This document shows positions 1 through 43,542 of a DNA stretch of 64,000 bases, piece by piece. This DNA is from Adineta ricciae. Its lineage: Eukaryota; Rotifera; Eurotatoria; Adinetida; Adinetidae. The position numbers were made by a program, and so were the translations under genes. Location: contig CAJNOJ010000431.1 of assembly GCA_905250025.1 (NCBI GenBank), positions 3,154 to 67,153 on the forward strand, in the 5' to 3' direction. The notes under the pieces are model-generated. The model searched no databases, had not been told where the DNA came from, and saw only the letters and a program-made list of their open reading frames with translations. How positions within the stretch are numbered: position 1 is the first letter of the stretch; each line of letters opens with the position of its first letter.

Positions 1-1324
1 TTTTTTTGTGTGTCACTGTTCATCGAAGACGTGAAGTTGTAATAAAGTGGCTTGTCAAATACTGGGGAGTATTGAATGTAATCACCAAAAAAGATAATAT
101 TTATACCACCCATCGTAGACATGGGATCGCAGTGTTTAGCTATTGCGACAAGTTTATTGAGACGAGCCAATAAGCTAAGACCGACCATTGACATTTCATC
201 CAGAATCATGTACTCAACGAAACGCCATGTATTCTCCAGTGCCATTTGTCCAGGACGATTCATCGCTTTTGATTTATTCTTTCGATTTCGTCCTTCGCCG
301 AGAAACGAATGTATGGTCATCCCTTCAATTTCTGCCGCAGCAACTGACGTTGGTGCAAGTTTTCTTAATTTATGTGCACGATTGGTTTCTGTGAAATAGG
401 CAGTTATAGCCCGGATCAACTGAGACTTCCCTGTACCTCCACAGCCAGGTACGCACATAATTAACTGATTTTGTTTGTCACCTACAAAGATGAGATACAT
501 TAATGATTAGTTTTTCGATTTTATCGTACTACCTTCGTTCAGTCTATCTAATCCATCCAAATGACCAGTGATAATCATGAATGCAGCCTTTTGGTTCTTA
601 TTTAATGTAAATTGTGTTGCTATATTCTCTCGTGTTATTTCACTAGGTACCACGATCTTCGTAACTGGCATAATATATCTTGAGCTTGTAGTCTCATTAT
701 TAGTACCGAGATCTGTAGATATTGCGCCTTCTGTGGTTAAAACTGGCTCATTTTCAGCATTGTCGTTGTTCTCGACGAGATCGTTTTGCAATCGTTCACC
801 GATACAGGCATTTCGTATTTGCTCTTTTTGTTCTTTGATCTTACGTTGCCATGTGTTATTCAATTGAATTAATTCACTAGTTGCAGGCACTAGATGTTCA
901 TGATCATATAAAATTTCTTTATCGACTTTGGATAAATATGTGAAACGATTTGTTGCATTGATGTGAGAATCTGCAAATGATCACTAGCCATGACAACTTC
1001 CGATAAAAGAAATCATCTTACTTTGAATATTGGCAAATCGATTCGCTCGATCGACCGCCTTCACTATTTTTTCGAAGTATGTATGCTCTGCTTTGTTTGC
1101 ATTGCCATTCACAACAGGAATGTCGGTTATGTCAATGGCTTCCAAAATGTCAAGAACTTCGGTATTTTCGTCTTCGCTATCACTTTCAACGTGATGGGAA
1201 TAGTATTCGTTGCCGCTCGTTTCAGTTTGTACAGCTTCAATTACCTGCTGTAGATGCTCATCCCGATCAGTTTTACATTCCTGAAGTAGTTGGATGTTAT
1301 TGATGATTTCCCATGATGACGGCG
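1..1324 (-). CDS. Helitron helicase region, second version, partial
   Basis: Minus-strand exons 1324-1022, 970-533 and 481-1 match exons 10, 11 and 12 of the neighbouring Helitron at about 95% identity by eye, with the same splice positions. Walker A, DEMSM and the GDxxQ motif are present. The frame runs off the window at base 1, past the point where the other copy is cut, so this version carries the helicase further towards its C-terminus. It begins abruptly at the contig join (n1325), which argues that it is the overlapping end of another contig (allele or close copy). It is not an independent truncated element. Confidence 0.75.
34..1324. repeat. Duplicated block (partner 1326 to about 2614) across a single-n join
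   Basis: The bases after n1325 restart at the sequence found at 34 and stay colinear for about 1.29 kb, with roughly 5% mismatches and a small net indel. The first block ends where its partner continues into unique sequence. That is the pattern of two overlapping contigs that were scaffolded but not merged. Confidence 0.85.
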
Positions 1325-1325
1325 N

Positions 1326-4300
1326 AAGTTGTAATAAAGTGGCTTGTCAAATACTGGGGAGTATTGAATGTAATCACCAAAAAAGATAATATTTATACCA
1401 CCCATCGTAGACATGGGATCGCAGTGTTTAGCTATTGCGACAAGTTTGTTGAGACGAGCCAATAAGCTAAGACCGACCATTGACATTTCATCAAGAATTA
1501 TGTACTCAACGAAACGCCATGTATTTTCTAATGCCATTTGTCCAGGACGATTCATCGCTTTTGATTTACTTTTTCGATTTCGTCCTTCGCCGAGAAACGA
1601 ATGTATGGTCATCCCTTCAATCTCTGCCGCAGCAACTGATGTTGGTGCAAGTTTTCTCAATTTATGTGTACGATTGGTTTCTGTAAAATAGGCAGTTATA
1701 GCCCGGATCAACTGAGACTTTCCTGTACCTCCACAACCAGGTACACACATAATTAGTTGATTTTGTTTGTCATCTACAAAAGTAAGATATATTAATGATT
1801 AATTTTCTATTTTATCATAGTACCTTCGTTCAGTCTGTCTAATCCATCCAAATGACCAGTGATAATCATGAATGCAGCTTTTTGGTTCTTGTTTAATGTG
1901 AATTGTGTTGCTATATTCTCTCGTGTTACTTCATTGGGTACCACGATTTTCGTAACTGGCATAATATATCTTGAGCTTGTAGTCTCATTATTAGTACTGG
2001 GATCTGTAGATATGGTATCTTCTGTGGTTAAAACTAGTTCATTGTCAGCATTGTCGTTGTTCTCGACGAGATCGTTTTGCAGCCGTTCGCCTATACAGGC
2101 ATTTCGTATTTGCTCTTTTTGTTCTTTAATCTTACGTTGCCATGTGTTGTTTAATTGAATTAGCTCACTAGTTGCAGGCACTAGATGTTCATGATCATAT
2201 AGCATTTCTTTATCGACTTTGGATGAATATGTGAAACGATTTGTTGAGTCTGTATGAGAATCTGCAAATGATAATTAGTCATGACGGCTTCTGAAAAATA
2301 AATCATCTTACTTTGAATATTGGCAAATCTATTCGCTCGATCGACTGCCTTCACTATTTTTTCAAAGTATGTATGCTCTGCTTTGTTTGCATTGCCATTC
2401 ACAACAGGAATGTCACTTATGTCAATGGCTTCCAAAATGTCAAGAACTTCGGTATTTTCGTCTTCATTATCACTTTCAATATGATGGGAATAGTATTCGT
2501 TGCCGCCCGTTTCAGTTTGTGCAGCTTCAATTATCTGCTGTAGATGTTCATCACGATCAGTTTTACATTCCTGAAGTAGTTGGATATTATTGATGATTTT
2601 CCATGATGGCGGCAAAATGTTTCCCTGGTGAGCATTAAATGCCTCTTCCCACGATTGATTAACATGACATAAATCTTGAAATGTTCGCCAAGGCAGAAAG
2701 AGTGTGAGGATGGATCGACAATAACGTTCTCTTGTATCTTCTCGATCTTTACGAGGTATTGGCGCACCAAGCAGAACTGGAACGACTGTTTTCATTCGTT
2801 TTATATTTAAATGTGAGGCAGATTGTGGATGGCCAACTTGAAAGGTTTCTCTTTCAGACGGTGGTCGACCGCGTTGTATTTTTTTTGCTTGAATACTTTC
2901 CGATTGTGATAGAGCTTCTAGTATTTTTCGATCCTTGACATCAATGAGCTTTTTTCGATATAAGCTGATATAATCATATAAACACATATTGTCGAGCGCT
3001 GTTGAACGATATTGATAGTCTACTCTAGTGTTCACATACGCATATTTGTTGGTTGTGCCAGTGGGTTGAAGTAAAAATTGTTCTTCGGTTTCAAGCCAGT
3101 TTTCATCATTGTCAATATCTGCAGTATCTATCAAACGAGATGACAAGAGCATATTATAAAATAGAAGTTAATCTACTAGTCAGTTGAGTTTTTTCATGAT
3201 TGTCTATCGGCGGTCTGATATATTCTGCCAGGAAGAAAAGCGTACTCTATTTCATCAGCTACTGATTTCTTAATATGTTATTGTTTTATACAATTATTCT
3301 CGTACATACGTTTATGTATCATATGGAAAACTCTAAAAATCCAGCTTTCGTTCTGATGTTTGCAACCATTTACGTAAATATGAAGTGTACTAGTCATAGC
3401 AGAAAGTGATAAATATTACTTGTTGTTTGCCGCTGTTCTTTGATTCTAGCTTCCAGTAGCGTCGATTGTAAATAGTTTTCAATGCCAATGAGAAATAGAT
3501 TGACAAAGTCATGCGTTGTATAATGATCAGGCCAGCCCATAAGATAAGAAGCCACTTGCACCCCAGATAATTCCTGCTGCGATGCAAGTGTGTTATAACA
3601 GCGTAGTACGAGTCGACGCGATTTTTCCTCTACACTAACATTGACATCTGTACTAATTTTCTGCTTTTCGAAAGACTGAACAGCTTTTAGTACTAATGAA
3701 AATGTGTCATGAAAGGAGAGACTGGATTTTGTAACATAATCTGTGATATAATACACTAATGCCTTCGCATCACTGCCACTGAAAATATACTTGATATCCA
3801 TGTTGGAACGACAAGCACTGATAATATATTCGTTAAAGTTATTAATTGTTTCGTGAAGCCTCTTTAATTTAATTTCACCAGATTCAACATTAATTGATGA
3901 TGCATCTTGGATCCGTCGTGGCATCCGCATACGACATACAGGATTATCGGATTTTTTCGAATATTTATAGCAGGTGGCGGTGTGGTGATGGATATTATGG
4001 GCCTTTACTAGCTGTACAATGTCATCTTTGAACTTGAAGACAAAATCTGGCATTGATGGTTTTGGTGTTGGCATGATTGATGACACAAGCTTTAGAGAAC
4101 CACTTTCATTCACACTGGATTCTGAAGCTGGTAGCTGCCGTTGTCCAAGAACTTAAAAATTAATTAATTGACAAATATTAGTGACTTATTGAAAAAGGGT
4201 ACTTCACCTTCATTTTCAGCCACATTTGCACCGAACTTGCTCAGATCTTGCTTGATGATATCTTCTAGGTAGTTAAGAAGGCCACGTCGAAAATCTTCGT

Positions 4301-7300
4301 TTTGAACGGATTTTTTTAACTGAGAAGGTGTTAGGTCGTGATCAAGCCACAGTAGAATATGTAAATGCAATGAGCCTCTTCCTTGGGTCTCGACTGTACC
4401 AAAGTAAGCTTTAATAGGACCTACTACGCCCTTTTCAATCATGCATTTGAGAATAGAAGACATGAGTACATTGAAAAAACGAGCCGTAGCTACCGGATGC
4501 GAAGCTACAATCTGAGCACGCTCGTATGTTGATGGAATTGTTTCTGGTATAACTTTATCAAGATCAAGATCAACGCCGGCAAAATAGAGAGCCACACGGC
4601 TGTGAATGTCGGCAGGGTTTATTGTCATAAATATGCTGGGTAAACCCTGGTTGAAGATTAGTGCATGAATCTGAGTTCGAAGAGCTGCTCGTGAATAGGC
4701 AGAACCCATAACATGTCCACCTACTGTCTTGATTTGTCTCATAATCATGTTAATTCGCGGATTTTCTACAGCAGAGAACGTGTTTTTGCTAATAGCCATC
4801 AAAGCGGCCTCGATTTCACCACTTGTCAGAGTTTGAAGATCGTTTGCAGCATTTTGAAAATAGGGACGAGAAGCCATAAGAGTTGCATTCCAACAGGCCT
4901 GTCGCCTTTGCATTACATTGAAAATAACAAACATGAATGAATGATGCTTTTCAAAACGCTGATCATCATATGCCAAAAAATAACGGATGTGTTGTTCCAA
5001 TGTGACTGCAATGGGCCTTGATGAATCTTGAGGTGCGCCACATCCGTAAGGAAAAAGAGTTGGGTACAAGCCGAGCAACAGTTCTGGATTGAAGCAGTCG
5101 TTGATTGGCATGTGGGATCTTGGGATCATATAGACATCATCTTCATCCTCATTAGATTTGTCGAGCAAATCAGACGATACGTTGGTTAAACCCTTGTGGA
5201 CTTTGCGTAGTAAATGTACACCAATATCTTCCGATGAGATCATTGTTCCATTAGCATCCAGTACAGCGCTGATATAAATGAACATATTAGAAATTTTCCT
5301 TATAATATAAATGAAATTTACCTAGGATTTATTGAACAAATATTTGCAGGATTCTTTTCATTTTGGTCTATAGCATGTGCCAGTGGATCGTCAGTAAATC
5401 CAGTTCGTTCTGCATTTCCATCATGAGTATTCTCTATTCTCTCTAAAGTAGCCCATATGCTTTCCGGGACGTCATCTTCGGGTAATTTTGCGATGTTTAT
5501 CTCATTTACTGAAATATAACATGACATATATTGTGGATCATTATTTTCAGAAACTTACTAGGAATAGCTCTGTACATATGGTTGTGATGTTTCAACCATA
5601 GAAGAGCTCTGCGAATCTTTTGTCGACTCACACCACAAATCTTGCGTAAGTAAACCCGGTCTGGTGTGTGCGCACCAATAAAAATAATTTTCAACGCATC
5701 AGACAGGTCTTCCACATCCAATGGTAAACTTGTAACAATATTTGGCATGTTATGCATGAAGGTAATCACATTCCCTTTGAGCGCTGTTTGAGCAGTAGTA
5801 TGATGATGAAACGGAGATTGCAGTTTTATAATACAACTGTTGTGTCGATATAGGGATATTCTTCAAAGAAAACAATTATGCTTTCATAACTTTATGATTT
5901 CAATACTAGTTCAGTACTCACAGTTTTTCTTCAGCAATTGTTAGTCCCTGAAGCTCAGTTGGTATATCACCAACCCACATGTTGTTTGCTACAGAGAACA
6001 TTGGAATCTTACCTTTAGTTAACGCTCTGTAGCATTGTTGACAAATAGTACCAGTTTTTGTCATTTTATTATACCCTCTCTTGTAAAGTACTATGTTCGA
6101 CACTGAGAACACGTCGGAATTCTCATAAACTTCTTTGAATAGAAATAAAATGCTACAATATATTTACTTGGTCAATATATATATACCTCGTGCATCGTCT
6201 TGTTTTTTAGAAATAATATCCACAAGATCTATATGCGTAGTTAGTTGCTTCAGGTTTAGAATATCCTGCAAAGCACATTCGTTCATTGTGTTAGCGGAGG
6301 CTCGAATATTACACAAGATACACGTAGATTGCCGCAATGCTCCCATGGACATATGATTAGAGAAGTCTTGCAAACAATAGTTTTTTAATTTCGTTGGAAT
6401 CGCCATTGGCCATATAAATTCACTTAGTAGAGTTTGGTGCTCCTTCTCTAATATTTGTTCTTCACGCTGTATGTTTCCAGCTTCCAATGATTGATTTCTG
6501 GATAGGCGGTTATCCGCAGTCCGTTCCACGTCGGTGTGTTGCTTGTTATCTGCTCGAGGCTTGCTCCTTTGTTGACTTCCACTTAATCTATTTTTTGCAG
6601 ATCGCTGTTGCTGAGCGGTGAGGCGCATCCGCTGCTGATTTTCAGTTTCATTTTCTCTGACAGTGTGTTTCGATAGTCGATCAGCAGAAAGACGTCCTAA
6701 TCGTTGTTCTTCGGTTTCATTTTCTCTGGCAGTGTGTTTTGATAGTCGATCAGCAGAAAGACGTGCCACTCGTTGTTCTTCGGTTTCATTTTCTCTAGCA
6801 GTGTGTTGCGATAAGCGATTACCAGAAATACGTGCCACTCGTTGTTCTTCGGTTTCATTTTCTTTGGCAGTGTGTTTCGATAGTCGATCAGCAGAAAGAC
6901 GTCCCAATCGTTGTTCTTCGGTTTCATTTTCTCTAACATCACGTTTGCGCAGTCGATCAGCGACAAGACGCTGTTTTCGCTGTTGTTCACTTTCGGTAGT
7001 TCTTTCTTCGCGTTTCCGTTGAGAGTCATAAGTCTCTAAATTCAAGTGTGGCCTCTCGGCCGATGATGACGACGGTCTATGCTTTCTGGCGTTGGGTGGT
7101 GGGGAAAATTCAGGACTTCGTATAGACGAAATCTGGTTATTTTTAATCGTTTGCTTTCGAGGAGTCTAAATGAAATCTCAAAACATAGCTTTTTTCATTG
7201 ATACTCCTTTATATGCTACCTCTATGATCGGACTACTTGGTTCATTACTTGCGCTGCGATCGCTTCGGCATGACCGCACAAGTGGTACGAAATGATTTGG

Positions 7301-15339: not shown

Positions 15340-16520
15340 AATGTGATTTGTCATGCTGTCATCCGTCAAATCCACATCAACTTGTTCGGGATGATAAATT
15401 TGTTTCGGCAGCTGTCGACCAACGATCATGTCAAATGAAATTGTTTGGCAAATTATTCATGGTTAACCTTTTTGAAGTAAAAATCCGATTAAATTGTCCC
15501 AATATGAATAAGGACTCAGTAAACAAATATCTCTTGTTTTGATGTTCTACATAAAGTATTTCGTTATTCATATCGTGCAGATTCCGAAAGTGCAGTACAT
15601 TCCAATGAAAGGAAGAAATTGCTTTATGATTCAATTTGTGGTATGAATCAAAAAGAAAAACTTGATATTAGGGAACAATTCACATCAGCAAAATGACAAC
15701 AACATGTGCAAAAGCATCAGGCACTTATCATTCAAATCTCATGCGTCGTGTTTTTGCTTCGTCAAGATCTTGCTCGTAGAGAACATTCAAATGAAACAGC
15801 AATTTGGTTCAACTACTTGGATATCTTTTCTGAAATATTCAACGATAGATTCTTTGAAACTCCTTCTTTCTATTCATAAAAAGTTCCTTATTCTTCTAAG
15901 ATAAATTTAATAAGGACAAGATTCTGTGCCAATGTAGTTCATTACATTGTCTCAGTTCAAGAATTTTTATTTTTATCCTCCATTAGTGATGGAAAAGGTA
16001 ATGGTCGAGTTAAAGCACACGATTTATTTGTACAAATCAATGGTTGAGTTTTTTAGAGTGAAATCAGCCTATTTGATACTTACAGACACGAAAAACTGTC
16101 AAAAGTTATTCAAAGTTTCAAGTTACCGCTTGCAAGATGTTCTTTGTGTAGCTAAAACTGCAAATAATTGTCTCATACCTATTCGACGGATAAGATTTCA
16201 GGAAATAAAGATGTGCGTTCAGTTCAATCGCTTTACAAAAGAGGAAGTGATGATAGTGATGCTTTAACAGAAAAATTTCTTCTATCTGAACAACAATGAC
16301 CGGAAAAATGTTACGATCTATTTTTTAAGACACTCTACTTTTATTATTTATGAAGAATTTCATTGCAAACAATCTGTTGAAGCACTAGATATGATGATTA
16401 GCACGCTGTGTTCTCGGTCTACTCAAAGTAACTTTGAATTGTGATGCAATGTTGAGAAATTTATCCTTTGTATGTATTCTTGGTGTATTCAATACTTCAG
16501 TTGATAATTCATATGATCTT
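15340..16520 (+). pseudogene. Decayed plus-strand gene of unknown family
   Basis: Protein-like reading continues through stops and frame changes. A frame at 15348-15539 gives way to another at 15541, which reads well through LLYDSICGMNQKEKLDI and REHSNETAIWFNYLDIF with a single TGA at 15694-15696. Further pieces at 15980-16200 and from 16230 (LYKRGSDDSDALTEKF) are again frame-shifted. The composition is that of a soluble helical protein. No family was recognised. The second version from 19620 reads a little further (EEFHCKQSAEALDMMI), so both copies are broken. This suggests real decay rather than a sequencing slip. Confidence 0.45.
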
Positions 16521-17686
16521 GTTCAGGAGAAAATGAGTTTTTGTGATTGGTGATAGTTGTATTCAAAGATTGACAGCTGAAGTACACGCACACACGTATG
16601 ACCTGTGATTTCTTTAATCTATAATCGACATGAATTAGATGGAAAAAAACAGATCACAAAGATTTTGACTATTTGTGACATCTTAAATTCGTGTGCTGTT
16701 CACAAACAGATGTTTTGACAAGTGGAGCGACCTCTATTTAACTATACCGTTATTACAACAGTTGCTGAACCGACATTAAATCGTTCAAAAATTGTGCTTT
16801 GAAATTCTATGGCACAGCCACGATTGGATCGTTGTTTGATAGAACATATTTAGGAACGAAAGCTGGGTGAAACGAATTCACATCGAATGATAAAAGACGA
16901 GTTTTTTCTGTTAAATAGTTCAAACTGTAAAAGAAATTATCATGATAAAAAGTAAGCCAAGCTAAAAGAGCATTTTGTACATATTAGGACAACTTAACAA
17001 TGTAAAGCGGCTTATTCATTGAATTTACTTTCGTCTGTGTGATAAGAATGTGGAAAAATTCTGCAGAGCATCTAATAATCTTACATAGAATATTATCCGA
17101 CTTTAAAACGGTTCGCCGTTCCTTATGTACATGAATTCACAATTTGACAAAGAAAATTCATCGATACGAATGACCTTTCGCATAGAGATGACACTTTAAC
17201 ACATTCCACAAACAAAGAGAGGTGATCATTGTTTCTGTTGCGTTCTATTCGTTCATTTATGAAATAATTCTTTCTTTCTTTCCTCCGGTCAGTATACATG
17301 TTCGTTAGCATGACAACGGCACGCAATATTTTTCTTTCTTTTCTGTTAACATAGAATTTCAAACAAAGAATTAAGAGAATAGCCAATATATGTTCTACCG
17401 AAAATGGCGAATTGCTTTAATTGGTGACTCAGCACAATTCAGTAGACAGTTGCTTAGGTTCTATTAATCAACATCTTCGTTCTATCTAGTGAATGAATTG
17501 TAAATTAGAAGAATCAAATTAAGAAATTACCATGTTTAGTTGGGCCAACCATGAATAGACATCTAGAACGAGTAATTTTATTTTCAATTCGCTTTTGAAA
17601 ATCATTGTCTAGCCATTCTTGTATTTGTTGTCGATGTTCATCAGGAATTCTATATGAAAACGACGATTATGTGAAATATTGAAAAT
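16230..17686. repeat. Block duplicated at 19620-21078
   Basis: 1457 bases, colinear with 19620-21078 (1459 bases) and a few percent different, with scattered SNPs and small indels. It contains the end of the decayed plus-strand gene and the last visible exon of the Rep-like gene. The second block is bounded by n19619 and n21079, so it is a small separate contig. It is most simply the other haplotype, or a close paralogue, placed in tandem by scaffolding. Confidence 0.8.
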
Positions 17687-19182
17687 GAATTCTTACATGA
17701 ATGATGAAACATCATGTGGTGGCGCGTATTCCATCGCTTGGCGCTTTTTAGCAGTTCGTAATTCATAGTCAATGTTTTCTCTTATTTGTTTACCTCGTAC
17801 GAGATATTCGAATTTCAAATTTTTTTTCACTATATCAACCGCTGAAAAAGAAACATCTTTTAAAGAATGCGTATGCATAGAAATGGAGAGTCAAACCGCT
17901 ATTAAACGATTCTTGTTCGAAGGCTGCGGTAGCAACATCTTCTTGCTTCTTTCGATAATCATCCGATGCAAAGTTTTCTTTTTTACAGGTATAAATCGAT
18001 GATTCAATATATTTCCCATTAGCTAATAGCTTCATTTCTTCATTGAATCGGTCCCCATTTGTTACATATAAATATTCACCCGAACCAACATCTATTTAAT
18101 AAAAAGGTTTTATTTAGATAGAAGATTAAAAATAACAATCTTACTTGGAAACAGATGGTTCAAAAATTTGTGCTTGAAGTTGACTTTTCTAGCAAATGAA
18201 ATATGAATCGAAATTAGCTTTTCACCAGCGGATTTCGACGTATCTAAACTCTATAGTATACTCATACAGTTTAAAACAACACGAATACTACCGGCAACAC
18301 ATAAATATCGTATCTTGGTCAAATCATTGGTCGGTGCGATTTGAATTAATGGAAACATTGTTGCAATAGAAGTAAATGCATCTAGATAAGTCATGTTTGT
18401 TTTGATGTTTTTCAAAAAGAAATGGACTCGATTTAATCTGTCGTTGTCGTCCTTAATATGACTTTTATTTTGAAAAGCTTTTTTCCGCTTTGTGTTCGTT
18501 GAATTATCTGTCAAAGTAGATTGCAATGTCAAAAGAAGATCGTTCGAGACCACTCCATTAGGTAAAACATCTATTGATTCATTTAGTGCTTCTGGAGAAA
18601 CGTTTAGCTGATTGTTTTCTCTTGAAGATAAAACATTGGCAACGAAATCAATTGAAGCAAGACTAACGCTCTCCTGCATATCCTGTGTAGCTGATAAATT
18701 AGAATTGTTATTAAGAATTGCTTGCGTGGATACGGCTATTGGATGAAAAATGATCACAGAATCGTCTATGAAAGCTTTTTCATTTTAAAACTATGAACTA
18801 AAAGAAGTATTCAAACAAACCTGAGACAAAAACCGACTTTGATGAAGATGAGCTTGTTGAGCAAGAACACGCACATGAACTATTGCAAGAAGAGCATGGT
18901 GACATAGGTACATCGAATGACGATTTCTGTGCGTCAGTCAACTGATTATCATTCAAACTTGACATCGAAGAAAACGCGCTCGATCTGTAAGAAGAGCAGC
19001 TCTAAATATATCACAAGTACTGAAATTGCTCACCTTCTGATTTCGGCTTCGTCTGTATGTTCATGTTCTATTGCATGGTCATAGCAAAATTTCTTCAAAC
19101 AGTCGCCACAAACGAAATCAATCGATGGATTATAACAATGAGAGCCATTGTAGTATATAAAACTACAGCGATCAATAAACAG
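17531..19182 (-). CDS. CRESS/geminivirus-type Rep-like gene with N-terminal zinc-binding exon, partial at both ends
   Basis: Minus-strand exons 19182-19034, 18984-18821, 18774-18292, 18243-18145, 18091-17897, 17841-17697 and 17649-17531. Introns are 46-55 nt, all GT..AG and in phase. Exon 1 has a Cys/His cluster (FVCGDCLKKFCYDHAIEHEH) like a B-box-type zinc site. Exon 2 is Ser/Cys-rich. From the end of exon 3 the order of elements matches a Rep initiator: a strand (IRYLCVAD), the region of the second endonuclease motif (ISIHISFARKVNF), a helical middle domain, then DVSSF, EWLDNDF and a P-loop-like LFMVGPTKHG at the end of exon 7. The paired histidines of the second motif are not kept (I-S-I-H) and no clear catalytic tyrosine motif follows. 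The nicking site therefore looks lost and the gene may be domesticated or dying. The exon that should complete the P-loop was not found. The family call is inference from pattern order. Confidence 0.5.
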
Positions 19183-19419
19183 CTAGAAGAGAATGAATGA
19201 AGCTATTTTAAACAATGAAAACATTCTCTAGATAGGTGACTTATTGAAAGATTGTAGGGAAGAGACTAAAAAAATGTCATTAACTCGACGCATTTCTTTC
19301 GTTATATCAAAAATTTTAGCGTTCTACTGCCATGCATAACGCTGTTACATCTATGAGAATGAAAAGTATTCAAAATGAATTCCGTCTACGTTAATTTTTT
19401 CTTGTTTTCTCACAGCGTC

Positions 19420-19618
19420 GGGTATTACTAATTTATGCTAACAGCACAAACAGCCAACTTTTCGAGATCGCATGTCGATCACTGCTACAAACACCCACAA
19501 CTCGAGGAGTTATGAACACAAACACCCGCAAACACCCACTTTTCTTAACTTTTAAGAAAGATAAACCCCTGACAAACTCGAAAAAACCACTTTCCTCAAC
19601 ACTAACACCCAATAGCTC
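19420..19618. repeat. Degenerate AACACCC-type array at a contig end
   Basis: Short strings such as ACAAACACCCACAA, CAAACACCCGCAAACACCCA and CTAACACCCAA recur within about 150 bases before n19619. The reverse strand reads GGGTGTTT-like units. This is G-rich on one strand and imperfect, reminiscent of degenerate telomeric or subtelomeric repeat, and the contig stops here. It could also be a simple C-rich low-complexity patch. Confidence 0.35.
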
Positions 19619-19619
19619 N

Positions 19620-21078
19620 GCTTTACGAAAGAGGAAGCGATGATAGTGATGATTTAACAGAAAGATTTTTTCTATCTCGACGATGACGATGGGGAAAACG
19701 TTACGATCTATTTTTAAGACACTCTACTTTTATTACTTCCGAAGAATTTCATTGCAAACAATCTGCTGAAGCACTTGATATGATGATTAGCACGCTGTGT
19801 TCTCGGTCTACTCAAAGTAACTTTGAATTGTGATGCAATGTTGAGAAATTTATCCATTATATGTATTCTTGGTGTATTCAATACTTCAGTTGATAATTCA
19901 TATGATCTTGTTCAGGAGAAAATGAGATTTTGTGATTGGTGATAATTATATTCAAAGATTGACGGCTGAAGTACACGCACACACGTATGACCTGTGATTT
20001 CTTTAATCTGTAATCGACATGAATTAGATGAAAATAAAACAGATCACAAAGATTTTGACTATTTGTGACATCTTAAATTCGTGCGCTGTTCGCAAACAGA
20101 TGTTTTGACAAGTGGAGCGAGTTCTATTTAACTATACCGTTATTACAACAGTTGCTGAATCGACATTAAATCGTTCAAAAATTGTGCTTTGAAATTCTAT
20201 GGCGCAGCCACGATTGGATCGTTGTTTGATAGAACATATTTTAGGAACGAAAGCTGGGTGAAACGAATTCACATCGAACCACAAAAGACGAGTTTTTTCT
20301 GTTAAATAGTTCAAACTGTAAAACAAATTATCATGATAAAAAGTAAGCCAAGCTAAAAGAGCATTTTTGTACATATTAGGACAACCTAACAATGTAAAGG
20401 GGCTTATTCATTGAATTTACTTTCGTCTGCGTGATAAGAATGTGGAAAAATTTTGCAGAGCATCTAATAATCTTACATAGAATATTATCCGACTTCAAAA
20501 CGGTTCGCCGTTCCTTATGTACATGAATTCACAATTTGACAAAGAAAATTCATCGATACGAATGATCTTTCGCATAGAGATGACACTTTAACACATTCCA
20601 CAAACAAAGAGAGGTGATCAGTGTTTCTGTTGCGTTCTATTCGTTCATTTATGAAACAAATCTTTCTTTCTTTCCTCCGATCAGTATACATGTTCGTTAG
20701 CATGACAACGGCGCGCAATTTTTTTCTTTCTTTTCTGTCAACATGCAATTTCAAACAAAGAATTAAGAGAATAGCCAATATACGTTCTACCGAAAATGGC
20801 GAATTGCTCTAATTGGTGACTCCGCACAATTCAATAGACAGTTGCTTAGATTCTATTAATCAACATCTTCGTTCTATCTAGTGAATGAATTGTAAATGAG
20901 AAGCACCAAATTAAGAAATTACCATGTTTAGTTGGGCCAACCATGAATAGACATCTAGAACGAGTAATTTTATTTTCAATTCGCTTTTGAAAATCATTGT
21001 CTAGCCATTCTTGTATTTGTTGTCGATGTTCATCAGGAATTCTATATGAAAACGACGATTATGTGAAATATTGAAAAT
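19620..21078. repeat. Second copy of 16230-17686 on its own contig
   Basis: Flanked by single n at 19619 and 21079. On the minus strand, positions 21041-20923 repeat exon 7 of the Rep-like gene with the same splice borders. The plus-strand remnant at its left end also repeats the decayed gene, with its own in-frame stop. Treat as an alternative haplotype or paralogue fragment. Confidence 0.75.
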
Positions 21079-21079
21079 N

Positions 21080-21196
21080 ACGATATCACGCAATTCTTCA
21101 ACGGATTGATTTAATAATTGAGAATCATTCGTTGCTATGACAAGATATGAAGCTTTGATTTTGCTTTCGTATTGACGAATGTAGAAAAGCCATGTG
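21080..21196 (-). CDS. Exon fragment of an unidentified gene, cut by contig join
   Basis: The minus-strand frame reads well as protein (WLFYIRQYESKIKASYLVIA, then a short helix ending in EELRDIV) right up to n21079. The composition is clearly coding-like, but no family was recognised. It is on a different contig from the Rep-like exon that follows in the scaffold, so joining the two is not justified. Confidence 0.35.
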
Positions 21197-23751
21197 TGTA
21201 TATTACATATGTTTTCTTTTAGTTGATGTCAATCGTAAAAATGTCATTTCTCCATCGTGCACGTTGAAGATCTATTCAATGTGTGACGCATTTTCTTTTT
21301 CAGTCATTCGAAGACGATCGGCGTTTTCTCACTCTCGAAATCATATTGTCTAGCTATGCATTTCAGCTCGAGATTTACTTTGTTTTCAACTTCTACATTA
21401 CAAGTCAATTCCAACAAATCGATTCCTCATGCATGTGTGTCTTGTGATCGTATTCAACTTTTCCAAGTCTGATCGAAGGGGATATAAAATCGTGAACGTC
21501 TATTCCTTTAGATTGCCATCGTTTATACCACACATGTATGTTCACCGTCGTTTTGTATTTTCACGTGTTTCACATATCATTTTGACATCGTTGCCTTTGT
21601 GCTTGATGTTCATTTATATGTACATGTAGTTAACCAAATTGATTTCTTTTTAGATGTGCAATATCTGTGTCGATTTAAATGAAGAAGAAGGCTTTGCCAT
21701 ACTTATCCATGTACGCGATGTTTCGCTCCTCATACGAGAGCAAGTTTCGTTGAAAAAGAGGAGACAAATTCTTCTACATGAGACAATATTTTTGCCGCGA
21801 AAATCGATCTTGACGATGTCGAAATTGTATAGGATGACAATGGAAAGTTTCATTCCTTTTGCCGAATCGGATTATAGTCGAATGAAGTAGCATTTGGTGT
21901 ATACAAGATCAGATGAAAATGACGTTGAAACATGATAGCTCGGTTTAATATCAAACATATATGGTTATTAGTTTGCCGCGTCATAGTCTATCAATATCGG
22001 TTGATTGAATCGAAAATGCTAGACTAACAAACATATACATACGTATATAAATCTATAGAATGAGGATTTGTAACTAATTTAGTATTGACTTGTTGTTCTT
22101 CTTGTTGTCATCACCACCATCATCATCTTTATCCCAAGCAGTAATCGCAGCGACAGCAGTAGTATAATGAGATCGAAATGAAAATGGGAAACATGCACTT
22201 GAACGGTCCAAAACAATGTATCGTATCTAAACGTGTGAGAATGCATGTGTTTAATTTGGTTGAAAGCTTCATTCGGTTCTCTTCTTCATCTAGATTCAAC
22301 GATTGATCTAATGCTGGCAACAGAGAATAGATTCGAATTGAATCAAAATAAACAAGCAAGTGAAGATTTGTAGTCAATTCAAGCCGATGAAGAACGACTA
22401 TCTTCATAGATTTATTCTATTATATGCATGGCATGCGTTTGTGTTGGTTTTTCAAATGCATATAATGTATCTTTAGAAGTTGTTTGTGTGGTTGTCGTGA
22501 CGTACAGTGCAATCGTTGTTACTGCGGCATTGCCAGATGTGTTACGATGACAACGCCAAGGAGTTTATGTTCATGTCAAGTTCAATGAAAATGAGACGTT
22601 GAAATCAAGTATTCTTGAGGGTGCGAGTGTATTTCAGTTGTGAAGCAAAGAGTAAGACTGGCGGCAACGTCATACTATTGCTTGGTTTATCTTGTGTATT
22701 TGTTCATTGAACTGGGTGTGATCAATGTATGAAAATCGAACGAAGATTAATTAATTTTGAAGGAATATGATATGTTGTTCATATTCGGTGACGAGATGAG
22801 CAATGAATTGGATTGCATTGGTGCTACTGTGTTTAATTTCTATATAACATGTCAGTGATGAATTTGTGAAATGTCGAATGCCAATGTCGTCTGTACGAAT
22901 GATAGAAAAAAGAAATAGAAGCAAACTCCACTTCTTACCTGTTGNNNNNNNNNNNNNNNNNNNNNNNNNNNNNNNNNNNNNNNNNNNNNNNNNNNNNNNN
23001 NNNNNNNNNNNNNNNNNNNNNNNNNNNNNNNNNNNNNNNNNNNNCGATGTGTTAGTTCAAGCATTACATCGAACGATATGTAATTCAATTGTCGAATATT
23101 ATCTTTTTTTTATTTCATCGTAAATCAACGATAGGAATAAAGAATGGAATAACGATTTAGTCGAAACACAGCGAATGATTCTTCGGATTTAATGTTGTTC
23201 ACTGAATTGAATATCGTGATATGAATGATATTCGAGACCTAACGAATATGTTATATTTGAAAATTCAAAAATAGAAGACGCTGAAAATTTCAGCACTCAA
23301 TCTTTAGCACAGCTCTCGCTCGCTGTATTGTAAAAACGTATGATAATAAGCTGTTGATGATACGTCGCTATGTAAACACTCCAAATGAACCTACATGTAG
23401 TCACTTTCCTATTCGGCTTCTATTTCACTTTGAACTCCTTTGATATATCAACATAAACAATATTCTCTATTGATCATTGTTTCCCGTTCCTCCTTATTCT
23501 TGATTGATCATCTCTTCCGCGCTAATTCCTTCTCAAGCACATATATATGTGACTGTGTATTCTATTTCATTGCAGTTACATTTTAAAGCTTGGATAAGCT
23601 TGACACACAGATTTAGCTTGCGTATACTTTGAATCCTCTTTGCTTATTTCTTGGTAGCTTCTGACTTCGATGTTAGTTTGAACTTGATTACTCATTCTAA
23701 GTATATTTTCCAGAATATTTACGATTACCCTCTTATCAATCTACGAACAAG
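21197..23751. other. Intergenic with a 100-n gap at 22945-23044
   Basis: Small frames in this stretch (for example 21429-21629 and 21654-21890, plus strand) lack splice support, family features or conserved composition. The frames at 22852-23123 are only open because they run through the n block. A pyrimidine-rich stretch precedes the gene at 23752. Nothing else is supported. Confidence 0.45.
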
Positions 23752-24558
23752 ATGGATTCGAGAAGATTTATCCTTCGAAATCTCACAAGCTTAACTAAAT
23801 TTGAACCAACGGCACCAAGAAAATTCTATTATGTCAATACTTTAACAAAAAATGAAACAATCACCGAATTGATCGACCTTGTCAAACAAAAAACCGAATT
23901 CGTTGTTGAAACAAAGTATGACAAAATCAATGGGTGTCCAAAGTTAATTCAAATCTTATTTGGTCATAAGTTTGTATTGCACACTATTCTTGTTGAAACT
24001 TTATATTTACCAGAGATTGATCATTGTTTACATCATCAATTAAAACGTTTGTTCTCCGTTATTTTATCACAGTCGAATGAAATACAATCGTGGGATGATA
24101 TAAAGTCAGATTTATATCATTTTTTGAAGTGTTCTTTATTCACTAAGCATCAAGTTGAGAAGCTCCAAGCGGTCAGCATAAAAGAAAAATTTGGACGTTG
24201 GTTTGAAGAAAAATGTATCAATATGAAAGTATATGGTGCACGGTCTGAAGAATGGTCAATAGAAGAAGCTTTTGCATTCTTGTTCCAACAATATTTCGAC
24301 ACATCAGTTTCTGATTGTCGTGATTGGAATGTAGGACTTTTTGCGTACTTGCATACGAATTGCGAACCACATCCGAATCGTCATAATCAAGATGTCATCA
24401 ATCTATTGAACGACAACAAGCGTCGATTGATTCTCCGTCAATATGCGATTCATGAATGTACAGCCGTTAGAAAGATTGCTAGCGTTCTTCAAAACAGCTG
24501 GACACGGAAAAACGCAGAGAACTATTTGATAAAATATTATGGAAAATTTTCTTGGTAA
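23752..24558 (+). CDS. 3'-5' exonuclease-like protein of uncertain activity, 268 aa
   Basis: A single-exon plus-strand frame. Residues 26-75 (FYYVNTLTKNETITELIDLV, then TEFVVETKYD and PKLIQILFGHK) have the strand-helix-strand start of DEDD/RNase H-fold 3'-5' exonucleases, followed by a VETLYLP strand. The first catalytic motif of that fold is D-x-E; here the matching place reads E-T-K, so the acidic pair is incomplete. The C-terminal 100 residues are helical, with NKRRLILRQYAIHECTAV near the end. An exonuclease-like fold without activity is my preferred reading; an unrelated rotifer-specific protein is possible. The last 60 nt are repeated after n24719, without their start. Confidence 0.4.
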   Translation: MDSRRFILRNLTSLTKFEPTAPRKFYYVNTLTKNETITELIDLVKQKTEFVVETKYDKINGCPKLIQILFGHKFVLHTILVETLYLPEIDHCLHHQLKRLFSVILSQSNEIQSWDDIKSDLYHFLKCSLFTKHQVEKLQAVSIKEKFGRWFEEKCINMKVYGARSEEWSIEEAFAFLFQQYFDTSVSDCRDWNVGLFAYLHTNCEPHPNRHNQDVINLLNDNKRRLILRQYAIHECTAVRKIASVLQNSWTRKNAENYLIKYYGKFSW

Positions 24559-33677: not shown

Positions 33678-36600
33678 ATGGTATCGTGGTTGAAAAACAA
33701 ACTTGCCTATGGCATATTTCAATCAGACGATGATAACATTTCAACAGATCAACAACATAAAAACAAAGAAAACGTTGCTATAATATGGCTTAATCCGAAT
33801 GCTGACCGACATTCTAATGTATCAACAACTTTGGAACGTCTACGCCAAGTAAACGATTTCGTATACTTCTCTAGAAACATCACCGAATGTATTACACACG
33901 TTACTACAGTACCGCAAGAAATTATTATCTTGATCACGTCGAACATATACTCTTGTGATATATTGTCTCAAATAGGATCATCTGGAAAGGTTGATTCTAT
34001 TGTTATCTTCTGTCTTGAAGAAGATATATCTACTAATCGTCTTGATCAATATTCAAAGGTTATTGGTGTATATTCACAACTAGATGACTTGTTGGCATTA
34101 GTCCGCAAACGATTGATCTAGATAAAGAGACGCGAACAAATATTTAATTTCTACGCCGCCAATCAAAAAAACTTTCGTAATTTGTCTATCGAAACGGCTC
34201 GTTTTCTCTGGTTTCAAATACTTAAAAAGATCATTGAATATCTTCCAAACGATCGACGGGTCAAACAAGCAATGGTGAATCACTGCCGTCTATGCTATGA
34301 TGGCAACAAAACTGAATTAGCGGCAGTGAATAAGTTCGATGAAACATATACATCCGAAGAAGCGATCAAGTGGTACTCGAAAAGCTCATTTGTCTATCGA
34401 ATGGTAAACAAAGCACTTCGAACAGAGGACGTTGAACAACTTCATCTATTCCGTTTCTTTATAAAAGATCTTTCGCAGAACATCGAGCGACGCATGGCGT
34501 TATCAGTCAACGATACATTGCCAAAAATAGTTTATCGAGGGCTTCAGTTGTCTACGGATGATGTGAGCGAACTAAAACGAAACATTGGAAAATTAATATC
34601 ACCCAATGGTTTTATGTCAACAAGCCGCAGTCGTAGAGTGGCCAACGTTTTCGCTGGCGTTTCTGATAAGTCTGTAAAGCTGCATCCTGTCGTATATGAA
34701 ATAGAGTGCAATCATCAACTCGCTCGTAAATTTGCATTTGCTGACATTAGTGACGAATCGAATTTTCCCGAAGAGCAAGAAGTTCTATTTGATATCGGAT
34801 GTACCTTCAAAATCGTGTGGGTTAAACGTAGCAAAGCCAATGGCTATCTTGTTCGATTGCGTATGACCGATGAAGGTTCGCAAATGGCTGACAGCTACAT
34901 GGAAAGCAAACGCAGCTTGATAGATACACAAGACATTCAAATTACGTTTGGTTCTCTTCTCCGAAAAATAGGTCACTATGACGAATCATGCCGTTACTTC
35001 AAACAACTTCTTGCTGATTCAGTACAGTGCGATATAGCTTGGATTCATTGTCATTTGGCCTTGTCGTTGACGAAGACAGATGAGAACGAAGAAGCTTTGA
35101 AACATCTGGAAACTGCTGCAAATTATATGAAAACCGATACAAGATATTGTCCAGTCGATTTACTTTCTGTACTTTGTGCAATTGGTAATATCCAACGAAC
35201 ACAAGGACTGCGTGAACGCGCATTTGAAACATATATGATTGCTATGGCTCTGCACGACACGTGTACGATCATAGACAGCAACGGTTCGGACTTGAGTTAC
35301 ATCGCCGATATCTATTTCGACTCTGGTGATTATGACAGGGCACGTCAAATTTGCGAGAGTAGTCTCCAACTGATCACCCAATCCAAATATCCTGACTATT
35401 TGGCAATGGCCGACATATTGAACACTATGGGTAATATCTCTCTCTTAGAAGGTAACTCGATCAACAATGCCCTAGAGCATTTTCGTAAATGTCTCAGTAT
35501 ACGCGAGCCATGGTTACCCGGAAATCACCCGGCAATTGCGGACGTTTTGGAAGATTTGGCAACGGCTTATTCACGACAGTATGACACGAAACAGGAAATT
35601 GAATGTTTGTTACGAGCAGTAAAAGTGCGTCAACGGCATTTACCTTATGGTAAAATCAGTTTAGCTCACTGCTTGCACCGCGCAAGTGACGCCTATGAAA
35701 AGCAAGGCAAACTGAAATTAGCCGTTTCTTATATGCACGAAGTTTTGCAGATAACCGATTCATGTGCGCATATTAAACCCATAACGACTGCTCAATATTT
35801 GTTTAATCTAGCTGAACTCTATCGCAAACTTCACCACGAGAAAGAGAGTGTTGTATNAATAGTTTATCGAGGGCTTCAGTTGTCTACGGATGATGTGAGC
35901 GAACTAAAACGAAACATTGGAAAATTAATATCACCCAATGGTTTTATGTCAACAAGCCGCAGTCGTAGAGTGGCCAACTTTTTCGCTGGCGTTTCTGATA
36001 AGTATGTAAAGCCGCATCCTGTCGTATATGAAATAGAGTGCAATCATCAACTCGCTCGCAAATTTGCTTTTACTGACATTAGTGTCGAATCGAATTTTCC
36101 CGAAGAGCAAGAAGTTCTATTTGATATCGGATGTACCTTCAAAATCGTGTGGGTTAAACGTAGCAAACCCAAAGGCTATCTTGTTCGATTGCGTATGACC
36201 GATGAAGGTTCGCAAATGGCTGACAACTACATGGAAAGCAAACGCAGCTTGATAGACACACAAGACATTCAAATTACGTTCGGTTCTCTTCTCCGAAAAA
36301 TAGGTCACTATGACAAATCATGCCGTTACTTCAAACAACTTCTCGCTGATTCAGCACAGTGCGATATAGCTTGGATTCATTATCATTTGGCCTTGTCGTT
36401 GACGAAGACAGATGAGAACGAAGAAGCTTTGAAACATCTGGAAACTGCTGCGAATTATATGAAAACCGATGCAAAATATTGTCCAGTCGATTTACTTCCT
36501 GTACTTTGTGCAATTAGTAATATCCAACGAACACAAGGACTACGTGAACGCACATCTGAAACATATAGGATTGCTATGGCTCTGCACAACACGTGTACGA

Positions 36601-37898
36601 TCATAGACAGCAACGGTTCGGGCTTGAGTTACATCGCCGATATTTATTTCGATTCTGCTGATTATGACAGGGCACGTCAAATTTGCGAGAGTAGTCTTCA
36701 ATTGATCACCCAATCCAAATACCCTGACTATTTGGCAATGGCCGACATATTGAACACTCTGGGTAATATCTCTCTCTTAGAAGGTAACTCGACCAACAAT
36801 GCTCTAGAGCATTTTCGTAAATGTCTCAGTATACGCGAGTCATGGTTACCCGGCAATCACCCGGCAATTGCGGACGTTTTGGAAGATTTGGCAACGGCTT
36901 ATTCACGACAGTATGACACGAAACAGGAAATTAAATGTTTGTTACGAGCAGTAAAAGTGCGTCAACAGCATTTACCTTATGGTAAAATCAGTTTAGCTCA
37001 CTGCTTGCACCGCGCAAGTGACGCCTATGAAAAGCAAGGCAAACTGAAATTAGCCGTTTCTTATATGCACGAAGTTTTGCAGATAACCGATTCATGTGCG
37101 CACATTAAACCCATAACGACTGCTCAATATTTGTTTAGTCTAGCTGAACTCTATCGCAAACTTCACCACGAGGAAGAGAGTGTTGCATNGCATTTACCTT
37201 ATGGTAAAATCAGTTTAGCTCACTGCTTGCACCGCGCAAGTGACGCCTATGAAAAGCAAGGCAAACTGAAATTAGCCGTTTCTTATATGCACGAAGTTTT
37301 GCAGATAACCGATTCATGTGCGCATATTAAACCCATAACGACTGCTCAATATTTGTTTAATCTAGCTGAACTCTATCGCAAACTTCACCACGAGAAAGAG
37401 AGTGTTGTATATTATCACAAATCGGTAAAGATTAGTCAGCTTCAGACAGATCTATCGGGCGAACCAGACCGACAATCTCTAGTTTGCTTCTCACAGCTCA
37501 CAAACTATTATGCTAAAAGAAAGCAATATGATCAAGCTTACGAATACTGTATGGACCATAGAAGCTATCTTTTGAAATTTCCTTCACATAATCGTTGGCA
37601 GTTAATTAAAATAGAGTCTATATTGACCAAATTAAAATATCTCATTCAAAAACAAATAAAACATACTTCACCTCACTCAGATACGTACGAAATCAACCGA
37701 TCTATCCACCCTCTTACCTATTTCTCGACTGCAAAGAGCCGACGCTATCGATCACCACGAATTCCAGTTCCAGCTAATACAAATGCCTATACACCGATGG
37801 GTACATGGAAATCGTCTCAGTCACATCATAAATCTCCTCTAACCTATTTCGGCCCAGTACATAGTCAACGGTATAGTGGAATACCTAGACGGACATAG
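33678..37898 (+). CDS. ADP-ribosyltransferase-TPR protein, interrupted by one TAG and falsely duplicated by contig joins
   Basis: The frame opens at 33678 with an N-terminal domain (VAIIWLNPNAD..). It meets TAG at 34119-34121, then continues in the same frame to 37898. The ART domain has the R-S-E pattern: IVYRGLQLS, GFMSTSRSR and EEQEVLFDIG. This predicts arginine-type mono-ADP-ribosylation. A TPR array follows. n35857 and n37189 bracket a second version (35858-37188) of 34526-35856, colinear over 1331 bases and a few percent different. 37190-37410 exactly repeats 35636-35856. The real gene is therefore 33678-35856 continued at 37411-37898 (889 codons including the internal TAG). The second ART domain belongs to the other haplotype. 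The C-terminus is basic with SPLTYFGPV-type motifs. The substrate is unknown. Confidence 0.75.
34526..37410. repeat. Three overlapping versions of one ART-TPR gene segment
   Basis: 34526-35856 pairs with 35858-37188 without net indel (1331 bases each). 35636-35856 is identical to 37190-37410. The middle contig is the variant; the outer two join directly by their 221-bp exact overlap. Confidence 0.92.
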
Positions 37899-40441: not shown

Positions 40442-43309
40442 TCAATGTTTGGTTTGAATAGCTTCGATATTTCTTCGCACACTCTGGATATCGGGGTGAT
40501 TGGGCGGCAGCGACTTTTCGAATATATCCAAGGCCTGTCCTAGATAGAGCATTGCTTCCGAAAAAGATTTGGTGTAGTAATAAGCGGTACCCATATTAGC
40601 ATAGGTTTTACCCAAGATGGGATGATTCTGTGGGAGACACCTCTTTCCAATTTCGAGTGCTTCTTTATAATATGAAAGTGTTTTCGTGTAGTCATTCATG
40701 TTTCTATACACTAAACCAGTATTATTATACGCGTTCACCAACTCTGGATAATTGGTTGGAACAGTTTTTTTCAAAATCTCAATTGCTTTTTCATGAAACA
40801 AGACTGCCTGCGAGTAGTTTTTCATTTGTTTAAGTACACCACCGATGTTCATATACGATTGAGCAAAATCTGGATGATTCACGGGAAGTATCTGTTCTCG
40901 AATTTCTAACGCCTTTTTGTAGTATTCATGCGCTTTCGAACAGTTTCCTAAGTTATAATACACGAGTCCTATATTATTGTAAGAAGTTGCCAGCGAAGGA
41001 TGATTTGACGGAAGAATCTTTTCTTCGAGTTTCAGTGCTTTTTCTTGATACAAAATTGCATTCCGATGTTGTCCGATCTCGCCAAGTACTCCGCAAATAT
41101 TGTTGTATAATGTAGCTAACTCGAGGCACTTTGATGGGTGGTTTTGCTCGAAGATTACAACTGCCTCGTCATAGTACGAAAGTGCCATCGAATATTGTCC
41201 ATTCCTGTCGTATGCTCCACCGATGTTGATATAAGATTGGCCAATATCGATATGGTTTGGAGGAAATATTTGTTGTCGAAGTTTCAAAGCTTTTTCATAA
41301 TTCGAAAGCGCTTGGGAGTATTGTCCTGCATGGTGATGTACTAGACCAATATTGTTGTACGATTGAGCAAAGTCTGGATGCTTTGAATGAAGAGATTTCT
41401 CCACTATTTCTAGTGCCTTTTGGTATGACAATAGCACTTGAGAATATTTTCCCAGGTTGTCGAGTACGTGGCCAAGGTTGTTATATAATGTCGCTAGATC
41501 TGGGTGATTTGCAGGAAGATTTTGTCGATAAATGTCCAATGCTTTTTCATAAAATTGCAACGCTTGCAAATACTCCCCTTTCTTGTCGTACAATGCGCCG
41601 ATATTATTGTGAGATTGGGCAATGTCGATCGAATTTGAGCACGATACTCTTTGTCGGATTTCTAATGCTTTTTCAAAGGCCGAAATTGCTTCAGCGCACT
41701 TTTCTTTGGCGAAATAAACTGCGCCGATATTATTATAAGAAGCCGCTAATATGGGATGATCCAACGACGGACTTTGCTCGAAACATTCGATGATTTGTTT
41801 ATAAATAGAAAGTGAACTATCCAAGTCACCCTCTCTTGTCTTCATGTATGCTAGATTGTTGTAATTAAGTATATTTTCCTTTTGATTACATGTTTGGCCA
41901 ATTAATACTTTACACAATTCTTCGGCTTTGTCGTATCGACCTACTTTTGTTAGTAGAAGAGCAAGTCGATGGAGGCCCGTTGTGCCAGCAGTTTCTTTTC
42001 TTAGATGATCAGTTAAGCTGCAAAGTTGTTCGTCATTATCGGCAGTCAATGTGAGACTCACCTAGTACATTTCACTGCACTCTTCGATCTTCTTCACTTC
42101 GTTTATACGAAATACAGCATGCATAGAAAACAGAACTTCCCTTTCTGCCCTAAAATTGCTCATTCTATCAATCATCGCAAACGGAGTCGATGAAACCGAT
42201 GGGTCAATAGCCATTTGAAATAGAATGCCTACCGTTTCAGGTTTTGATGCGTTGCTTTCAGCCATCATATAAGCAACTCCTCGACGTTTACTGGTAGATA
42301 AAAAACCATTGAAAGATATCAGTCCACCCGTTGTTTTCGTAAGTTTCTCGAAATCCAAGACCGATAGCCCTTGACCGCGATATAATGTAAACGACTTATT
42401 CTTAACACGACTGCTCTGTGTTTGATGTAATCGTTCAATCTCATGATGTAAGTCACGAAGAAAGAATCCCATATTGAGTATCACATCGCTTTCCAACATA
42501 CGAAGTGCTTGATTCAGACCTGCATATATAAAATATTCACGTGTGTACCACCATATGGTCTTTTGAGAACAATAGGCGGTTTCAAATGCGCGGATAGTTT
42601 TCAATTGTAACTCATTTTCGGAATAATGTTGTCGCCAGAACTCGACAAACTTATCGATAGCTTGCTGATCATATTCCATTTCAAGAAAGATTTCTTTAAA
42701 AATTTTAGTATACATAAACGATGGTTCTAATTGATCTAAGCTTTGATTGGTTGTCTGTTCATTGCCTTCGATGAAACTGATTGCAATACAATCTTGTTCA
42801 CACTGACTAATGACTCGACAAAAAGTTTCATAGACTGCTGTTGTCGATCTTGGTAGATATTTGACCTTTGACCAATCTGTATTCGTTTGCTGATGTTCTA
42901 ATGCATCGTCACAAATGACAAATATCGTGTCAAGGTGATGAATATTATGAATACTCGTTATTATATGTTTGTCCGAAGGATTTGCAATAAACATAAATAC
43001 TTTTTCAGTAGGGATATCAGTTAGAAAATCAATACATTCATCGGAATCACCATATGTGTGAACACTACTGACGATCGTTCGAAGTTGTGATAGAATATTT
43101 TGATAATCATCGTTCGAGTTGTCAGCATTGGTATCTAGCCAAACAACCACGATACTTTCAATCGTCGATGGTCTCAGCGGCAAAATATTGGATGATAATG
43201 TTTTCACTATGAAAGTGTCTCGTGAGAGAATAGATGATACTTTCAAATCTTCTTTGCTGTCAGACATCTCAACGTCCATTGACTTGCTTTTGTGTGTCAG
43301 AATATCCAA
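40442..43309 (-). CDS. ADP-ribosyltransferase-TPR protein, one in-frame TAG between the two halves
   Basis: Minus strand. 43309-42065 codes for an N-terminal domain (SIVVVWLDTNADN..) and an ART domain with LYRGQGLS, NGFLSTSKRR and RAEREVLFSM (R-S-ExE pattern, arginine-type). TAG at 42064-42062 is followed without any shift by 42061-40442. This second part encodes about eleven 42-residue TPR units of the kinesin-light-chain type (ALSYYKEALEIGKRCLP, HPxLAxxYNNIG). The other ART-TPR gene has Leu where this one has TAG (Y-L-V versus Y-stop-V), so a single TTG to TAG change explains it. Without readthrough, the product is an ART domain alone, and the TPR half, having no strong own ATG (it begins GTG), may be silent. 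Pseudogene, readthrough or a base-call error all remain possible. Confidence 0.82.
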
Positions 43310-43542
43310 TACAAACTTGAAGTAATCTATAGACGGGCAAGAAAAAAAAAGAACACTGGATTATGTATTTAGTATTATGTGAGTACTTCAAACGCTGTCT
43401 TTGATGCATGTATGTTAGAAAAAATACGAGAAAGAATGTCGTTATATTTGTTGATAAGGACTTCAAACAAACTAAATTGAAAAAGACGTGAATCACATTA
43501 CAAAACAACATCTACAACGCATAAAGAGTCTCGTCATATTTT
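43310..43542. other. Short spacer
   Basis: 233 bases between the start of the ART-TPR gene and the 3' end of the GPCR gene, both on the minus strand. A poly-A/T tract is present near 43345. Nothing else is seen. Confidence 0.3.

Follow-up and report, generated by a model that had tools for sequence, protein, structure and literature searches.

Are broken Rep proteins kept by their hosts as antagonists or as DNA-binding proteins? This testable question is raised by a gene in the window, a stretch of 64,000 nucleotides from the rotifer Adineta ricciae. The gene is a spliced Rep relative without catalytic residues, bears a zinc-like segment, and lies apart from any detected element. It occupies 19182-17531 on the minus strand as seven open exons, all in phase. 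The joined exons gave 1,345 nt in a single frame without a stop, while the remaining two frames contained 28 and 44 stops, and none of 20,000 base shuffles of the joined sequence was free of stops. Introns 1 to 6 measured 49, 55, 48, 53, 55 and 47 nt, with GT..AG borders in all six. The initial annotation was right about the seven in-phase exons and about the elements SSF, EWLDNDF and VGPTKHG, all of which were present; its intron range of 46-55 nt is corrected to 47-55 nt. The features of the gene and its surroundings are as follows.

19420..19618, no strand assigned: dispersed repeat of about 199 bp just upstream of the gene, recognised by repeat matches in the genome
19328..19333, minus strand: candidate start exon (ATG GCA, then GT), conjecture only
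19034..19182, minus strand: exon 1, AN1/B-box-like Cys/His segment that probably binds zinc (sub-cut-off Pfam scores, Cys/His pattern)
18821..18984, minus strand: exon 2, Ser/Cys-rich linker
18292..18765, minus strand: exon 3, Ser/Asn-rich linker, then the start of the Rep endonuclease-like region (IRYLCVA)
18145..18243, minus strand: exon 4, motif II region, LIS where intact Reps have HLH
17897..18091, minus strand: exon 5, motif III region with a substituted Tyr; the central domain begins here
17697..17841, minus strand: exon 6, Rep central (Gemini_AL1_M) domain
17531..17649, minus strand: exon 7, end of the central domain and start of the P-loop (EWLDNDF...CLFMVGPTKH)
17454..17485, minus strand: conjectured last exon 8 (DRTKMLINRT, stop), based on a 45-nt GT-AG intron and the Walker A register
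20923..21041, minus strand: second copy of exon 7, within a block between single-N joints

The Cys/His cluster was found in the first listed exon as annotated, but a splice acceptor precedes this exon and a Met is missing from it, so that a start exon is to be expected further upstream. The candidate ATG GCA at 19333 would lead in phase 0 into exon 1 across a 145-nt intron. At the other end, a 45-nt intron and a 32-nt exon 8 probably close the gene in a stop. The fragment 21080-21228, considered as a missing C-terminus, was set aside for lack of a Pfam match.

To assess Rep ancestry, the joined protein was compared with Pfam. The results showed a match to Gemini_AL1_M (E 1e-7, 32.5 bits, cut-off 24) that spans exons 5-7, the sole family matched at E <= 10. 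Among the four families named earlier for a profile search, Gemini_AL1_M was therefore found above its cut-off, and Gemini_AL1, Viral_Rep and RNA_helicase were absent from the matches of the whole protein at E <= 10. The central segment alone scored 36.3 bits against Gemini_AL1_M (E 6.4e-9). None of eight shuffled central segments matched this family; four of the eight weakly matched other Pfam families, with a best E of 0.044. The endonuclease segment alone had no Pfam match at E <= 0.1. A sequence search with the Rep part against solved structures returned only a ribosomal protein (E 1.2), and NCBIfam gave no match.

Alignment with intact rotifer Reps was collinear across the endonuclease, central and P-loop regions, with 24, 22 and 23% identity, respectively, to the first aligned Rep. 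The hhalign score of the P-loop start against the intact Reps was 27.22, clearly above the best of 200 shuffles (16.72), and that of the endonuclease region was 21.65, narrowly above the best of 200 shuffles (20.49); the corresponding probabilities were 68.5 for the P-loop and 6.6 for the endonuclease alignment by itself. At motif II, the HLH of three intact rotifer Reps stands opposite LIS, so the paired His (HUH) is absent, as the initial annotation had stated. At motif III, WNEY stands opposite FNEE, and the catalytic Tyr is absent. Without exon 8 the frame ends at VGPTKHGNFLI. If the conjectured exon 8 is right, Walker A is altered to GPTKHDRT where intact Reps have GPTGTGKT, with the register kept without a gap and the Gly and Lys altered. 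The helicase exons of an intact Rep detected no remainder of the helicase in the window at E <= 1, although they failed to recover the exons of the window gene itself as well. A PF08283 search of the own genome gave no match; its controls were equally silent, so this empty result shows nothing. The Gemini_AL1_M match, the in-phase exons and the alignment with rotifer Reps bear out the earlier proposal of a spliced gene of Rep ancestry, and the descent of the gene from a Rep and the loss of its catalytic residues are supported.

Like a geminivirus Rep (PF00799, PF08283), the window protein has a central domain above cut-off and the order endonuclease-like region, central domain, P-loop. Unlike it, the window protein lacks a Gemini_AL1 match and the catalytic residues, has a shortened helicase, is encoded by a spliced gene and bears the zinc-like segment. 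The central domain of geminivirus Rep serves oligomerisation.

The own genome (130.46 Mb, 1,033 contigs) was searched for relatives of the gene. At E <= 1 the window protein gave 10 matches, seven on its own contig, two on contig C475 and one, weak (E 0.145), to a 447-aa open reading frame on C697. This frame encodes a Rep, carries HLHIQI and WNEY, and scored 35 bits against Gemini_AL1 (cut-off 24). Pieces of the C697 Rep gave seven endonuclease and five helicase matches in the genome at E <= 1. If C667 (E 0.09), the weakest of the endonuclease matches, is left out of the count, there are at least eight other Rep-like loci on four contigs (three on C697, two each on C976 and C820, one on C714), and the end of C976 carries an additional N-terminal Rep piece. 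HLH and Tyr are both retained at three loci (two on C697, one on C976), which scored 35, 19.7 and 24.2 bits against Gemini_AL1; the score of 19.7 fails the cut-off of 24. In two further Reps, located at C820:14 kb and at C976:2.6 kb, VYI replaces HLH and the Tyr is kept. Motif status was left unscored at three loci: an N cuts one C820 Rep ahead of the motif, and the C714 locus and the remaining C697 locus yielded only other parts. A second degenerate Rep group (L029 6994-7971 and L028 2522-2917, both on the minus strand, 94% alike) has REVYIQI for HLHIQI and keeps the Tyr.

A profile of three Reps matched the Rep nucleases 7vg8 (1.8e-8) and 1l2m (2.5e-6) among solved structures, both of which we take to be geminivirus proteins. 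The helicase profile of the intact Reps returned only an ATPase (E 0.04) and a G protein (E 0.07) from PDB, and their helicase pieces reached no Pfam cut-off, with one piece scoring 13.9 bits against RNA_helicase (cut-off 21.5). On three contigs, C697, C976 and C714, Reps have reverse-transcriptase (RT) sequence no more than 10 kb away. On C976, an open reading frame 1.3 kb from the Rep and on the same strand narrowly passed RVT_1 (29.8 bits, cut-off 29.6), and RT sequence homologous to it is present on C714 and C697. The larger RT frame of C714 is on the strand opposite the Rep, with a shorter RT-like piece on the Rep strand; C697 has its Reps, its RT and a frame shared with C714 all on one strand. 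The RT near these Reps is presumably Penelope-like. Neither the window nor seven loci contained an Rfam match at gathering score, and no hammerhead was found at E <= 1 in four of those seven. The RT-adjacent Rep loci are likely Terminons, an identity held at likely because no hammerhead was found at the loci examined.

In the available text of PMC6431247, Terminons are giant Athena/Penelope-like telomeric retroelements of bdelloids that carry Rep, GIY-YIG, coiled-coil and other open reading frames, have (ACACCC)n or (TCACCC)n ends, and may form circular intermediates, the role suggested there for Rep; Terminons are also mentioned in the available parts of PMC5408684 and PMC7943196. By that account, Rep frames in bdelloid retroelements are already known, and Terminon Reps, like the window protein, are Rep proteins in bdelloid genomes (PMC6431247). 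The Terminon-like Reps of the present genome are spread over several exons, are of geminivirus type by Pfam and align with the window gene over the endonuclease, central and P-loop regions. The window gene differs from Terminon Reps in its zinc-like segment and in lacking HxH, Tyr and the remaining helicase. It also differs from a Terminon in its surroundings, where no RT-bearing element was detected at E <= 1e-3: nine Terminon-like queries, RT included, gave no match in the window at that threshold. The window's own diverged Rep was likewise missed by the three Rep queries among them, so diverged remnants of an element could have been missed.

Outside the genome, tblastn searches of plasmids gave no match for either the window Rep part or an intact Rep frame. 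In IMG/VR, the window Rep part gave five pattern hits and two intact-Rep alignments gave 103 and 47, with no relative confirmed; in GTDB genomes, the endonuclease alignment of intact Reps gave 322 pattern hits, likewise with none confirmed. Endogenous Rep sequences, some with open frames, are known from eukaryotic chromosomes, and the window gene resembles them as Rep-derived sequence within such a chromosome; the main text of that report contains no occurrence of 'rotifer', 'Adineta' or 'intron' (PMC3198968, available text). In the titles and abstract beginnings of the open-access papers listed, no account was found of a catalytically dead spliced Rep gene of rotifers.

The zinc-like exon 1 scored below cut-off against zf-AN1 (E 0.025, 15.1 bits, cut-off 27.9) and likewise against DUF4428 (E 0.013). 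Similar sequence occurs at twelve other genomic places (E 0.03 to 0.6), and its Cys/His pattern was common to all ten of these that were inspected. The annotated zinc finger is plausible, although the Pfam scores stay under their cut-offs.

C475 holds the sole close relative of the window gene in the own genome, and this copy is a pseudogene. About half of its zinc exon is lost; it keeps ATGGCA but lacks the GT that follows the candidate ATG in the window. Part of its zinc exon adjoins the same linker as in the window gene, which makes the zinc-linker pairing older than the duplication. The homology stops before the Rep part, at a C-rich telomere-like repeat (L011 3719-3735), so this copy cannot date the join of zinc segment and linker to the Rep. 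The C-rich repeat at the break is the end of a dispersed repeat element with 26 matches in all; three co-oriented copies lie on C475, and the other two share the end point. Such an arrangement would be expected if a chromosome had broken here and a telomeric element had capped the end. The repeat just upstream of the window gene (19420-19618) had full or partial matches at 22 further places. On C29, C531 and C285 its copies form inverted pairs with a spacing of about 0.6-1 kb; it resembles the end of a DNA transposon and contains a C-rich telomere-like cluster at 19523-19535.

To assess signs of constraint, we compared the gene with its copies. The block 19620-21078 is a second copy of 16230-17686, 1.46 kb long and about 95.5% alike. 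The two copies differ by 61 substitutions in 1,457 nt; exon 7 (119 nt) is free of them (P 0.004), and the conjectured exon 8 (32 nt) shows one difference. The adjoining 37 nt of intron 6 up to the block end are likewise identical, and since the identity runs through intron 6 to the contig or block end, it may be an assembly effect. The second block is bounded by single-N joints at 19619 and 21079; for this reason a true tandem duplication of the gene region was set aside, and the 1.46-kb duplicate is probably a scaffolding artefact. Against the C475 copy, dN/dS was 0.51 (86 codons of exon 3; a point estimate from a small sample). Judged from sequence, the exon 7 identity and dN/dS may be read as weak signs of constraint. 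The gene may have a host role: these weak signs would favour it, and the altered, shortened helicase and the decayed sister copy count against it.

How did a Rep come to be here, and is it still in use? The earlier annotation proposed the capture of a Rep from a circular-DNA virus or plasmid. The Rep ancestry stands; direct capture found no backing, as no plasmid or IMG/VR relative was confirmed, and the catalytic Reps of the same genome, with introns and near RT frames, make a retroelement Rep at least an equally good immediate source. An older capture from a geminivirus- or genomovirus-like circular single-stranded DNA virus, independent of the Terminon-like Reps, concerns origin only and is compatible with the other readings. 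It would agree with the 22-24% identity to intact Reps and with the match to Gemini_AL1_M and not to Gemini_AL1, which two of the three intact Reps pass; the scanned pieces of intact Reps matched no Gemini_AL1_M, an incomplete contrast because their exons were unjoined. The collinearity with rotifer Reps across all three regions and the lack of a confirmed viral relative in IMG/VR speak against such a capture, and we regard it as rather unlikely. That the zinc-segment gene and the Rep fragment are separate genes falsely joined is very unlikely: every intron joins in phase within one frame, and the Pfam match crosses three exons, even though the start exon is conjectural and the C475 relative, ending before the Rep part, offers no independent view of the join.

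The main rival concerns function. The gene may be a decaying relic, a Terminon-type Rep frame joined to a zinc-segment gene, with a residual frame and no function. The lost catalytic motifs and helicase, the sister copy decayed and broken at the telomere-like repeat, and the further Reps without HxH on C820 and C976 favour decay, whereas 1,345 nt open across seven exons with GT-AG introns, the dN/dS of 0.51 and, with the contig-end caveat, the identical exon 7 argue for retention. We hold the relic to be a serious possibility, though a tentative one; it would then exemplify how mobile-element genes attach to zinc-segment exons. We give about an even chance to a Rep from a Terminon-like lineage that has lost its catalytic residues and persists as a non-catalytic binder of DNA or of Reps. 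The protein comprises an AN1/B-box-like segment, then a linker rich in Ser and Asn, then the N-terminal two thirds of a Rep of geminivirus type, most likely of the same lineage as the Reps in the genome's Terminon-like retroelements. As read from the sequence, it lacks the residues for nicking (both His and the Tyr) and for unwinding (P-loop altered, then a stop), and the endonuclease-like region and the Rep central domain are left over. Retained in this form, it could bind DNA or Reps and perhaps join and poison oligomers of intact Reps. The more specific idea of a restriction factor, in which the dead Rep enters oligomers formed by intact Terminon Reps by way of the shared central domain and blocks their nicking or unwinding, is improbable; if true, the rotifer would have gained a protein brake on giant telomeric retroelements.

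Single-N joints occur in the window at 1325, 19619, 21079, 24719, 26740, 27698, 29499, 35857 and 37189, and copies 93-100% alike, 0.2-1.5 kb long, adjoin such joints. Scaffolding has probably placed allelic contig ends one after the other at these joints, which makes apparent tandem duplications in the window suspect. The joint at 1325 lies where an N-joined duplicate crosses a Helitron-like element (507-5321, minus strand; Helitron_like_N 4.8e-35, PIF1 8.7e-20). A 285-aa open frame at 23701-24558 (plus strand) had no Pfam match at E <= 0.01. A single open reading frame at 34122-37898 (plus strand) encodes TPR repeats and an ADP-ribosyltransferase domain, and a related unit at 40442-43360 (minus strand) consists of an ADP-ribosyltransferase frame adjoining a TPR frame.
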